Positions 19,229-39,960 of a stretch of 64,000 bases of DNA are shown here, piece after piece (positions within the stretch are counted from its first letter, which is position 1; each line of letters begins with the position of its first letter). The DNA lies in assembly GCF_001306135.1 (NCBI RefSeq), contig NZ_LGKP01000012.1:62001-126000 (forward strand), in the 5' to 3' direction. A program made the translations under genes and the position numbers. The notes under the pieces are model-generated. The model had not been told where the DNA came from, did no database searches, and was given only the letters and a program-made list of their open reading frames with translations. This DNA comes from Herpetosiphon geysericola (GTDB taxonomy: Bacteria > Chloroflexota > Chloroflexia > Chloroflexales > Herpetosiphonaceae).

Positions 19229-20239
19229 CTAGATTAACGGCTTACGATAGGTGGTTGAGGTATATTCAACCTCAAAACCACATTGCTGATAGACGCGCAG
19301 TGCCCCAGTTGGGTTCTCGCTATCAACGCCTAAGGCCGCCTCGGTCATACCCATCTCGCGGAAGATCGCTAAACTACGGTTGATCAAGCCTGAAGCAACC
19401 CCTTGTTTGCGCCATGGTCGACGCACGCTGATGCCTTCGGTATAGCCACGCTTGAGGTTATACTCGCTATTTTCGTTATGATCAATATAGTTGAGCACCA
19501 TGCCCACCACTTCAGCGCCTTGCCATGCCACTTGCCAAAGCTCTGGCTGGAAGAATGGCGATTGAACCCAGCGTTGAAAATCGGCTTCGGTTGGCTCAGA
19601 ATAGCCCCAGTGGTCGCGGAAGGCTTCGGCATCTGCTGCCCAAATTTGACGATAAACTTCAGGCGGGCTTGGGCGAGTTTCGATCCCTGCTGGTAGCTCT
19701 TGGCTGCCAATTGGCTGGCTCAAATCGCGTTTCATGCTAAAACCTTGTCGAGCTGGCTCATAGCCAAATTCTTGATAAAGCTTGGCACTATAGGGGTTGC
19801 GATCAAAGCCATAGGTTTGGAAAAAGGGCGTGTTGCTGGTGGGGTTCTCTGCATGAATTTCGCGTAAACGCTGCTCTTGATACGGCAAAATTGCGTGACC
19901 AATCCCGCGATTGAGCCATTCTGGTCGAATATGCGCGATTGCGCGTAAAATCCGATTGCCAGCAGTTTCATCGTACCAACGACTAAATGCATAGCCAATT
20001 GGTTGCTGATCAACTTCGATAATCACCAGATCTTTATACAAATCGGTGTTGGGGGTGTTGCGATATTGGCGTTGAATATCTTTAGTCGTTGTAATATTGC
20101 GTTCGGCTAGGGCTTTTGAGGCGGCAGTGAAAATCTCAGCCATCGCGACAAAGTCTGTGTCATCGCGAAAGAAACGTACTTGAAAGCCATCGATTTGGGG
20201 TGGATTACTCAGTTGAATTGCTGCTTGTTGCTCAGGCAT
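19229..20239 (-). CDS. Tandem GNAT-domain acetyltransferase
   Basis: 336 residues with two GNAT folds. The first covers about residues 18-165, with acetyl-CoA loop IRPEWLNRGIGHAIL. The second covers about 175-335, with VRRPWRKQGVASGLI and the closing GALRVYQQCGFEVEY. The fused arrangement recalls mycothiol synthase-like proteins, but the substrate is not evident. AGGAG lies about 12 bases before the ATG, which is rather far. It is divergent from the RamB-like gene. Confidence 0.85.
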   Translation of the reverse strand: MPEQQAAIQLSNPPQIDGFQVRFFRDDTDFVAMAEIFTAASKALAERNITTTKDIQRQYRNTPNTDLYKDLVIIEVDQQPIGYAFSRWYDETAGNRILRAIAHIRPEWLNRGIGHAILPYQEQRLREIHAENPTSNTPFFQTYGFDRNPYSAKLYQEFGYEPARQGFSMKRDLSQPIGSQELPAGIETRPSPPEVYRQIWAADAEAFRDHWGYSEPTEADFQRWVQSPFFQPELWQVAWQGAEVVGMVLNYIDHNENSEYNLKRGYTEGISVRRPWRKQGVASGLINRSLAIFREMGMTEAALGVDSENPTGALRVYQQCGFEVEYTSTTYRKPLI

Positions 20240-20441
20240 AATTCTAAGGTTGCTCCTGCTTAAGTTGGTATTGCTGCTGCAAGTATCGTTTGCTGGTCAT
20301 GCTTTGCCATCAGCCTTAGGCCGATTCAGGCTCTCCGCCTTGCGACTGAGAATAATTAAGCCAGTCGATTCTGATGGTATAGTTAAGCGAGAGTGTTTGC
20401 CTCACGCTATGTTCAGAGACTTTGCAGCATGAAGGAATCGA

Positions 20442-39529: not shown

Positions 39530-39536
39530 CAAAAGT

Positions 39537-39568
39537 GAGGCCCGAACTCTAGCCTAGCTTCGGGCCTC
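39537..39568. terminator. Bidirectional stem-loop terminator
   Basis: A perfect 10-bp stem, GAGGCCCGAA (39537-39546) with TTCGGGCCTC (39559-39568), and a 12-base loop. It serves the ClC gene on the plus strand. On the minus strand ACTTTTGTT follows it, so it also terminates transcripts from the tRNA-like locus above it. Confidence 0.8.
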
Positions 39569-39627
39569 GTTGGTGCTATTGATTTGCACACATCAATACG
39601 TTTAAACTACCACGTCAGTCCTAAAAG

Positions 39628-39699
39628 CGCTGGGTTTTTCCATTAAACTACGGCCCCAAAGTTTGGCGGAGCTGGCTAGATTCGAACTAGCATCCAGCG
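39628..39699 (-). tRNA. Circularly permuted tRNA-like unit 2
   Basis: On the minus strand the 3' half comes first: CGCTG (39699-39695), GAT, T-arm GCTAG-TTCGAAT-CTAGC (39691-39675), acceptor CAGCTCC (39674-39668), G, CCA (39666-39664). After AACTTT comes the 5' half: acceptor GGGGCCG (39657-39651), TA, D-arm GTTTAATGGAAAAAC (39648-39634), C, CAGCG (39632-39628). Acceptor halves pair at six of seven positions (one G-U); anticodon stem CAGCG/CGCTG pairs perfectly. The D-arm closely resembles that of glycine tRNAs. The anticodon loop is split; joining at a shared TA would give CTTTTAC (anticodon UUU), which is speculative. Confidence 0.65.
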
Positions 39700-39779
39700 G
39701 TATATGCATGATAGTGCTTGACTTGATGTTCAACAGCGAATACTGAATCTAGAGCGATAATCTGAATTTGAGTGGCTGT

Positions 39780-39854
39780 GTCAGCGCCTCTGCCAATTGG
39801 GCTACCCAGCCAAATGTGGTGGCTGGGGGAGGATTCGAACCTCCACTTTCTAAC
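39780..39854 (-). tRNA. Circularly permuted tRNA-like unit 1
   Basis: On the minus strand: GTTAG (39854-39850), AAAGT, T-arm GGAGG-TTCGAAT-CCTCC (39844-39828), acceptor CCCAGCC (39827-39821), A, CCA (39819-39817). Then a five-base spacer (CATTT), then GGCTGGG (39811-39805), TA, a D-arm with the invariant GG (39802-39786), G, CTGAC (39784-39780). The acceptor pairs seven of seven and the anticodon stem five of five (one G-U), but only when the 3' half is joined behind the 5' half. Both broken ends lie in the anticodon loop and share a CACAG phrase. Flanks ATTCAG (39767-39762) and CTGAAT (39871-39866) can pair. Confidence 0.68.
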
Positions 39855-39861
39855 ACACTGT

Positions 39862-39960
39862 GCCGATTCAGCTTGAGCTTTAGTCTCAGCTTGCGCTCTT
39901 GCGCAACAGTATTGTAGGCCAGTTTGCCGCTTTGGGCAATCGTGCTTTAGGCTGATTCAC
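39862..39960 (-). other. Structured flank upstream of permuted tRNA-like unit 1
   Basis: On the minus strand there are consecutive short hairpins: TTGCC-CAAAGC-GGCAA, TTGCGC-AAGA-GCGCAA, and GCTGAG pairing with CTCAAGC with a bulge, then CTGAATCGGCACAG leading into the T-arm half. It is probably the transcribed leader or intervening RNA of the permuted locus. No ORF with an RBS is present. Confidence 0.4.

Follow-up and report, generated by a model that had tools for sequence, protein, structure and literature searches.

Mimicry of tRNA by bacterial non-coding RNA is known mainly from tmRNA and Y RNA. In the Y RNA YrlA, as described in PMC8394870, a stem binds Rsr, a relative of Ro60, and PNPase is bound by a tRNA-like domain similar to the D, T and acceptor arms. 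The mimicry is documented in that source by a crystal structure (6CU1) and by modification of the RNA by DusA and TruB. The genes of tRNAs themselves can also be permuted. In algae and one archaeon, such permuted genes rely on a bulge-helix-bulge motif (PMC3978253) and are processed into standard tRNAs (PMC3978253, PMC10085705).

The DNA analysed here (the window; 64,000 nt, G000:C43:62001-126000) comes from a Herpetosiphon genome of 6.14 Mb. On its minus strand, a tandem pair of circularly permuted tRNA-like units was read from the sequence at 39857-39628, and this locus is single-copy in its own genome. An initial annotation had described tRNA 3' halves that each precede a 5' half, in tandem and on the minus strand, and had interpreted them as permuted tRNA genes. 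Direct reading of the sequence confirms the order, and its pairing counts for the acceptor and anticodon stems hold on re-reading. In both units a complete T-arm is followed by one acceptor strand, by ACCA (unit 1) or GCCA (unit 2), by the other acceptor strand and by a complete D-arm. Together with two conserved stems, P1 and P2, the units make up an RNA of ~370 nt with the following features, listed 5' to 3' with the helix numbers of the consensus structure:

39911-39939 (-): promoter-like signal TTGCCC, 17 nt, TACAAT, just 5' of the RNA (consensus scan, 9/12 matches)
39892-39905 (-): 5' hairpin TGCGC-AAGA-GCGCA, an alternative to the outer P1 pairs (MFE folds, four homologues)
39724-39901 (-): domain 1, positions 1-173 of covariance model R1, 147.1 bits (a training-sequence score, the window sequence being one of the 23 used to build R1)
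39886-39899 (-): P1 5' strand AGAGCG..AGC.TGA, closing domain 1 (helix 1; double-sided changes in 8/12 pairs, 87.1% of cells paired)
39850-39857 (-): unit 1 'anticodon stem' 3' strand TGTGTTAG, 8 bp with 39784-39777 (anticodon-stem test)
39828-39844 (-): unit 1 T-arm GGAGG-TTCGAAT-CCTCC (sequence and helix 2; 100% of cells paired, double-sided changes in 2/5 pairs)
39805-39827 (-): unit 1 acceptor, CCCAGCC (39827-39821) with GGCTGGG (39811-39805), 7/7 paired; 9-nt loop ACCACATTT containing ACCA (sequence and helix 3; double-sided changes in 6/7 pairs)
39786-39802 (-): unit 1 D-arm GCCCAATTGGCAGAGGC (sequence and helix 4; invariant, and so no source of covariation evidence)
39777-39784 (-): unit 1 'anticodon stem' 5' strand CTGACACA (anticodon-stem test)
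39751-39765 (-): P1 3' strand TCAGATTATCGCTCT, sequence-conserved in alignment A7 (alignments and consensus)
39723-39729 (-): P2 outer 5' strand ACATCAA, pairing with 39596-39590 (helix 5; double-sided changes in 7/7 pairs, 97.7% of cells paired)
39709-39715 (-): P2 inner 5' strand ACTATCA, pairing with 39612-39606 (helix 6; double-sided changes in 6/6 pairs, 86.7% of cells paired)
39694-39699 (-): unit 2 'anticodon stem' 3' strand CGCTGG, 6 bp with 39633-39628 (anticodon-stem test)
39675-39691 (-): unit 2 T-arm GCTAG-TTCGAAT-CTAGC (helix 7; double-sided changes in 4/5 pairs)
39651-39674 (-): unit 2 acceptor, CAGCTCC (39674-39668) with GGGGCCG (39657-39651), 6/7 paired; 10-nt loop GCCAAACTTT (helix 8; double-sided changes in 7/7 pairs, 99.3% of cells paired)
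39634-39648 (-): unit 2 D-arm GTTTAATGGAAAAAC (helix 9; double-sided changes in 3/4 pairs)
39628-39633 (-): unit 2 'anticodon stem' 5' strand CCAGCG (anticodon-stem test)
39590-39612 (-): P2 3' strands, inner TGGTAGT and outer TTGATGT, with conserved TTAAACG between them (alignments and consensus)
39531-39568 (-): terminator-like hairpin GAGGCCCGAA..TTCGGGCCTC followed by a T-run (sequence; kept in the genus rows)

Three promoter-like sites were found by consensus scan in the 701-base region, compared with a mean of 0.7 in shuffles, and a CTAYMAT element is aligned at the promoter-like signal in all 8 rows of alignment A1. Only a 5-pair part of the terminator-like hairpin was reported by the terminator scan, and one site is the level of the shuffles (mean 0.7).

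The locus almost certainly represents a single family of structured non-coding RNA. The consensus structure of the full RNA from 20 homologues has 57 pairs, 43 of them with at least one double-sided compensatory change, and comprises P1, the T-arm, acceptor and D-arm of unit 1, the outer and inner parts of P2, and the T-arm, acceptor and D-arm of unit 2. In this consensus 94.8% of cells pair, compared with 75.4% in shuffles and 39.6-46.1% when the structure is slid by 1-3 columns, the comparison favouring the consensus to the extent that it was derived from the alignment on which it is scored. Covariation was 0.580, compared with 0.200 in shuffles and 0.104-0.140 in slid versions, and the observed pairing and covariation values were reached by 0 of 500 shuffles. 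The spacer and tail are also conserved between Chloroflexota, Streptomyces and phages.

The anticodon stems are missing from the 20-homologue consensus, which we think is due to misaligned columns. They were examined in 58 units from 39 loci, a set from which near-duplicate loci had been dropped and in whose selection the anticodon stem had played no part. A stem of at least 5 bp was present in 41 of the 58 units, compared with a mean of 6.7 (maximum 13) in 200 partner shuffles, and the remaining 17 had fewer than 5 bp. NCCA lies in the loop of only 34/58 units. The acceptor pairs 7/7 in 51/58, a figure whose shuffle comparison is biased by the selection of units on this stem; we therefore rely on the anticodon stem and on shuffles of the downstream regions described below. 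The alignment of homologues shows compensatory changes in the acceptors of both units and in the anticodon stem of unit 1; the latter is partly broken in L003, of the same genus. Thus the permuted order, tandem arrangement and stem pairing first noticed in the window are conserved in homologues and supported by covariation. A possible period-6 repeat on the P1 strand was found by a strict scan only in the window and one phage (2/39 sequences). In Candidatus Oscillochloris fontis (G011), unit 2 has ~160 nt inserted in its acceptor loop, with strong inverted repeats (L009, ~1505-1345, minus strand).

A DNA search of 41 genomes gave matches at E <= 0.001 in ten, of which eight are real loci: six in Herpetosiphon (the window's own and five at 94-99% identity), one in G016 (74%) and one in G011 (72%). 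The matches in G006 and G007 cover just 28-29 bases of T-arm and acceptor and were not counted as loci. Among named genomes, a pattern scan picked out Herpetosiphon giganteus, H. aurantiacus, H. llansteffanensis and Candidatus Oscillochloris fontis. The gene directly upstream of the RNA in G011 and G016, on the same strand, encodes DUF7873 (PF25283), and DUF7873 was found in exactly those eight of the 41 genomes that have the locus. In the window's own genome this gene lies on the same contig, ~123 kb from the RNA (G000:C43:225059-225784), and its protein matches positions 1-242 of the 244 of PF25283 with 395.8 bits.

The association was followed in 400 Chloroflexota genomes, apparently the same sample for both searches. 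PF25283 occurs in 23 of them, representing 14/224 genera, so that the co-occurrence counts are not phylogenetically independent. Covariance model R1, built from 23 domain 1 sequences, has a match at E <= 0.001 in 30 of the 400; a full-length match occurs in 23/23 genomes with DUF7873 (12 of which contributed sequence to the model) and in 0/377 others, under search filters that are stricter and lose weak matches. The weakest of the 23 is that of G240 (41.4 bits), and the window's own genome combines its full-length match, a training sequence, with a DUF7873 gene. The seven genomes without DUF7873 have partial R1 matches only, the best being that of G263 (60 bits); searched as a small cut locus, G348 gave a weak full-length match of 30.3 bits. 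The partial matches of six were rejected: in G051, G088, G294 and G374 they lie on or across tRNAs called by ARAGORN, and arrays of other tRNA-like RNAs are present in G263 and G348. G304 has a partial match and no DUF7873. The two arrays (L159, G263:C576; L160, G348:C35) consist of permuted tRNA-like RNAs with repeated GCTTACACAC and GCGC-rich closing stems, in genomes without DUF7873, and give sub-threshold YrlA matches of up to 42.9 bits; they are possibly Y RNA arrays. Within the window, R1 has a weak second match at 20097-20261 on the minus strand (20.0 bits, E 0.0068), which lacks the tRNA-like core and is probably due to chance.

The RNA starts no more than 565 nt from the DUF7873 gene in 14/23 of these genomes. 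In the other nine (six Herpetosiphon, G116, G130 and G219) the two are unlinked yet both are kept, which argues against mere hitch-hiking.

DUF7873 is also found in 73 of 50,697 phage records, from phages named after Vibrio, Gordonia, Rhizobium, Klebsiella, Serratia, Arthrobacter, Pseudanabaena, Rhodococcus and Microcoleus. Four of 72,556 plasmid records also have it, three of them from Streptomyces and one from Nonomuraea, as do 20 viral-contig loci. From 31 phage, plasmid or viral-contig records given for the R1 search, 30 were searched (L116 was left out), ten of which had sequence in the model; 25 have a match at E <= 0.01, 22 of these over the whole model, and the matches in G415 and G421 are confined to the tRNA-like part. 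RNA and protein are thus found together in Streptomyces, Nonomuraea and phages as well. R1 finds nothing in G425, W07, W11, W12 and W13. In the four W records a motif scan shows one or two units each, and their small loci give weak R1 matches of 15.8-34 bits, full-length only for L120. No RNA was found in G425, where the best DUF7873 segment covers residues 1-118 (L105). A control genome, Deinobacterium chartae, has both a DUF7873 match and a TROVE match, and the DUF7873 family therefore reaches Deinococcota.

Adjacency was scored at 57 DUF7873 loci (18 viral, 16 phage or plasmid and 23 bacterial, six of the latter from Herpetosiphon), near-duplicates such as L087/L088, L093/L094, L095/L096 and L098/L099 being counted here and absent from the 58 units; the partial DUF7873 matches L105 and L106 are outside both sets. 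At 44/57 loci the start of a unit lies no more than ~620 nt downstream of the gene, on its strand, and the same motif scan finds two or more units in 21/57. Dinucleotide-shuffled regions gave any relaxed match in 25/1140 cases, and a T-stem of 5/5 together with an acceptor of 7/7 in 0/1140. The initial annotation had judged its stem matches very unlikely by chance, and this comparison bears it out. At the 13 loci without a nearby unit, the RNA is in every case further off or elsewhere in the genome: at the window locus in the six Herpetosiphon, on another contig in G219, G116 and G130, 565 nt past the last matched stretch of a split DUF7873 gene in G343 (R1 start), ~8.3 kb downstream in L090 and L091, and, as a partial R1 match, ~1.8 kb downstream in L112.

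The phage loci frequently lie among tRNA genes. At least two tRNA genes lie within 2.5-3 kb of DUF7873 in 7 of the 12 annotated phage loci opened, and at least two were called near it by ARAGORN in 6 of the 18 viral loci (L087-L104). This frequent position suggests tRNA protection or quality control during infection. The next annotated feature begins 267-1162 nt after the DUF7873 gene in 9/12 phage loci; a short hypothetical CDS is annotated closer to the gene in L110, L118 and L122. In L108 a short hypothetical CDS overlaps unit 2 on the opposite strand. The same locus, from Gordonia phage GodonK, has a tmRNA match over threshold at 384-912 (90.3 bits), where the record annotates a tRNA-His at 463-524.

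Pfam lists DUF7873 as a family of unknown function. Its AlphaFold model is confident (pLDDT 89.2, pTM 0.74) and shows long helices together with beta hairpins. Foldseek searches of the PDB and BFVD gave no match with E <= 0.001, and all VIA-align rows were below Z 8; TolC (Z 7.0, rmsd 12.2) and some weak Cascade rows were dismissed as not meaningful. With no confident structural relative, RNA binding is not supported by homology, and the absent match does not show that the fold is new. The literature collection searched contained no mention of DUF7873 and no record of an RNA partner, and that same collection gave no description of the twin tRNA-mimic RNA. At threshold, Rfam has 38 matches in 19 DUF7873 loci (37 tRNAs and the tmRNA of L108), none of which falls on this RNA.

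We consider it likely that the locus encodes one ~370-nt RNA with two Y-RNA-like tRNA-mimic domains and that DUF7873 is its partner, a reading for which structure, covariation, conservation, co-occurrence and adjacency were established by computation. Two similar domains would lie in series. In each, a long stem (P1 or P2) would carry a permuted tRNA-like module that has the acceptor, T- and D-arms and lacks a closed anticodon loop, an architecture that would correspond to the effector end of YrlA. DUF7873 is most probably the partner of the RNA and may bind its sequence-conserved stems, and the two modules would then engage one or two tRNA-recognising proteins. The modules might recruit an enzyme, as happens with Y RNA in the Ro60-PNPase machine, or they might serve as a decoy resistant to cutting by an anticodon nuclease. 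We tentatively propose that the RNA helps to protect tRNA or to control its quality, a role favoured by the neighbouring phage tRNA genes, by the complete core without a cuttable anticodon loop and by the analogy to Y RNA. Taken as a whole, we lean towards a previously undescribed ribonucleoprotein of phages and at least two bacterial phyla, in which a two-module RNA and DUF7873 work together in trans, forming a counterpart of the Y RNA machine that is independent of Ro60 and acts on tRNA or on tRNA-cleaving defences. If this is true, a further tRNA-mimic family is added, one with two modules and an uncharacterised protein partner and frequent among phage tRNA genes. DUF7873 would gain a testable function, a recurrent unannotated stretch in phage genomes would be explained, and there would be a way into how phages manage tRNA during infection.

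The alternative that survives best is that the units are two divergent YrlA-type Y RNAs in tandem that bind the Ro60 orthologue Rsr, which we consider unlikely. The window RNA has the YrlA order of T-arm, acceptor and D-arm on a stem. Although the window has no Rfam match at gathering threshold, a permissive Rfam scan of 801 bases aligned the YrlA model (RF02553) full-length to both units, with 24.0 and 21.5 bits. These scores are far under the gathering threshold of 69, which YrlA reached nowhere in the 19 loci holding a DUF7873 gene and the RNA. The model also has matches at E <= 1 in 11/14 control genomes, and a simple YrlA assignment was rejected because it matches ordinary tandem tRNAs as well (most of the best Chloroflexota matches, checked with ARAGORN).

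Among the 23 bacterial genomes with DUF7873 and the RNA, a TROVE match is present in six, which are the six Herpetosiphon genomes, and Ro60 is ~4.5 kb from the RNA in two of these (G002, G004), but on a different contig from the RNA in the window's own genome. TROVE matches also occur in 5/22 phage, plasmid or viral records with DUF7873; TROVE/Ro60 is co-encoded with DUF7873 in G415, G416, G418, G421 and phage RHph_TM21B (W07). Against this, the other 17/23 bacterial genomes have no TROVE match. A Ro60 profile made for the clade and run on 15 genomes scored above 960 bits in the three that have Ro60. In two genomes with the RNA it gave no match at all (G011) or one at just E 0.91 (G016). Conversely, six genomes have Ro60 and neither the RNA locus nor DUF7873. 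From the TROVE counts and the clade profile, Ro60 was rejected as the general partner; it may cooperate with the RNA where present.

The Ro60 genes of G000 and G001 also have Y-like RNAs of their own upstream, of a different, unpermuted form (judged by eye), which further argues against the twin units being the Ro60-bound RNAs. Such tRNA-like RNAs upstream of Ro60 were seen at L002:2700-2575, L045 ~2710-2600 and L049 ~3120-2510, all on the minus strand. By eye they are linear in order in G000 and G001 (Herpetosiphon) and in G007 (same family). A long stem, CTTCCTC..GAGGTGATAGTAGG in the genus, replaces the anticodon arm, and they are not called by ARAGORN. They resemble Y RNAs in which the canonical YrlA order is circularly permuted.

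It is very improbable that the units are what the initial annotation took them for, permuted tRNA genes that yield working tRNAs once their transcripts have been circularised and cut. Such genes exist in algae and one archaeon, according to PMC3978253, and the complete acceptor, T- and D-arms, together with NCCA in 34/58 loops, fit them. In the window the unit 2 anticodon stem is followed by a loop-like CTTTTAG; this becomes CTCTTAG in L005-L007 of the same genus and has nothing similar in L008, so the sequence is not kept. The halves do not rebuild a full tRNA with a 7-nt anticodon loop, the stems being 8 and 6 bp long in the window, and 6-9 bp in 24/58 units overall. An anticodon loop is not apparent; instead the anticodon stems continue into the P1/P2 helices, where the flanks of the would-be loop pair together. 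Conservation of the spacer and tail across Chloroflexota, Streptomyces and phages, and the pairing of the RNA with one protein family, DUF7873, also argue against working tRNA genes. Thus the permuted order, tandem arrangement and pairing of the earlier reading stand, and the identity as tRNA genes falls. With the units as domains of one RNA, the difficulty it raised of how the anticodon-loop ends would be joined need not arise. Evidently, a permuted tRNA-like domain can pass for a permuted tRNA gene.

A tmRNA relative of the permuted type, in two or three pieces, is more improbable still. The Rfam tmRNA_permuted model has a weak match on unit 2 (15.0 bits, E 1), and the unit 2 acceptor of Herpetosiphon has a G3-U70-like pair. 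However, no tmRNA match at gathering was found in the window, a standard tmRNA is over threshold in 12/12 genomes tested, the window's own included, the D-stems of both units are complete, and L008 and L009 lack the G-U pair. Decay or rearrangement of ordinary tRNA genes into fragments would account for tRNA-like sequence whose unit 2 acceptor has a mismatch, but this origin can practically be dismissed, since the covariation counts contradict it, the locus is 94-99% identical within the genus with compensatory change across homologues, and ARAGORN calls no linear tRNA in the window or at the homologous loci L003-L009, where the initial annotation had named intact linear tRNAs as the finding that would refute its own reading.

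Among known systems, permuted tRNA genes (Cyanidioschyzon merolae, other algae, Thermofilum pendens) share with this locus a 3' half placed before a 5' half. They have a bulge-helix-bulge and yield a standard tRNA, whereas here the flanks form long stems. tmRNA and permuted tmRNA (RF00023, RF04321) are also RNAs with a tRNA-like domain, but a normal tmRNA is separately present in the genome, the D-arms are complete in the RNA described here and the permuted model reaches only 15 bits. In YrlA a stem carries a permuted tRNA-like module whose T-arm comes first, followed by the acceptor hairpin and the D-arm, and both window units are built likewise; in contrast to YrlA, the present RNA has two modules, scores far below the threshold of the YrlA model and tracks DUF7873 rather than Ro60. 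Of these systems it is bacterial Y RNA, with its tRNA-like module, that comes closest, rather than permuted tRNA genes.
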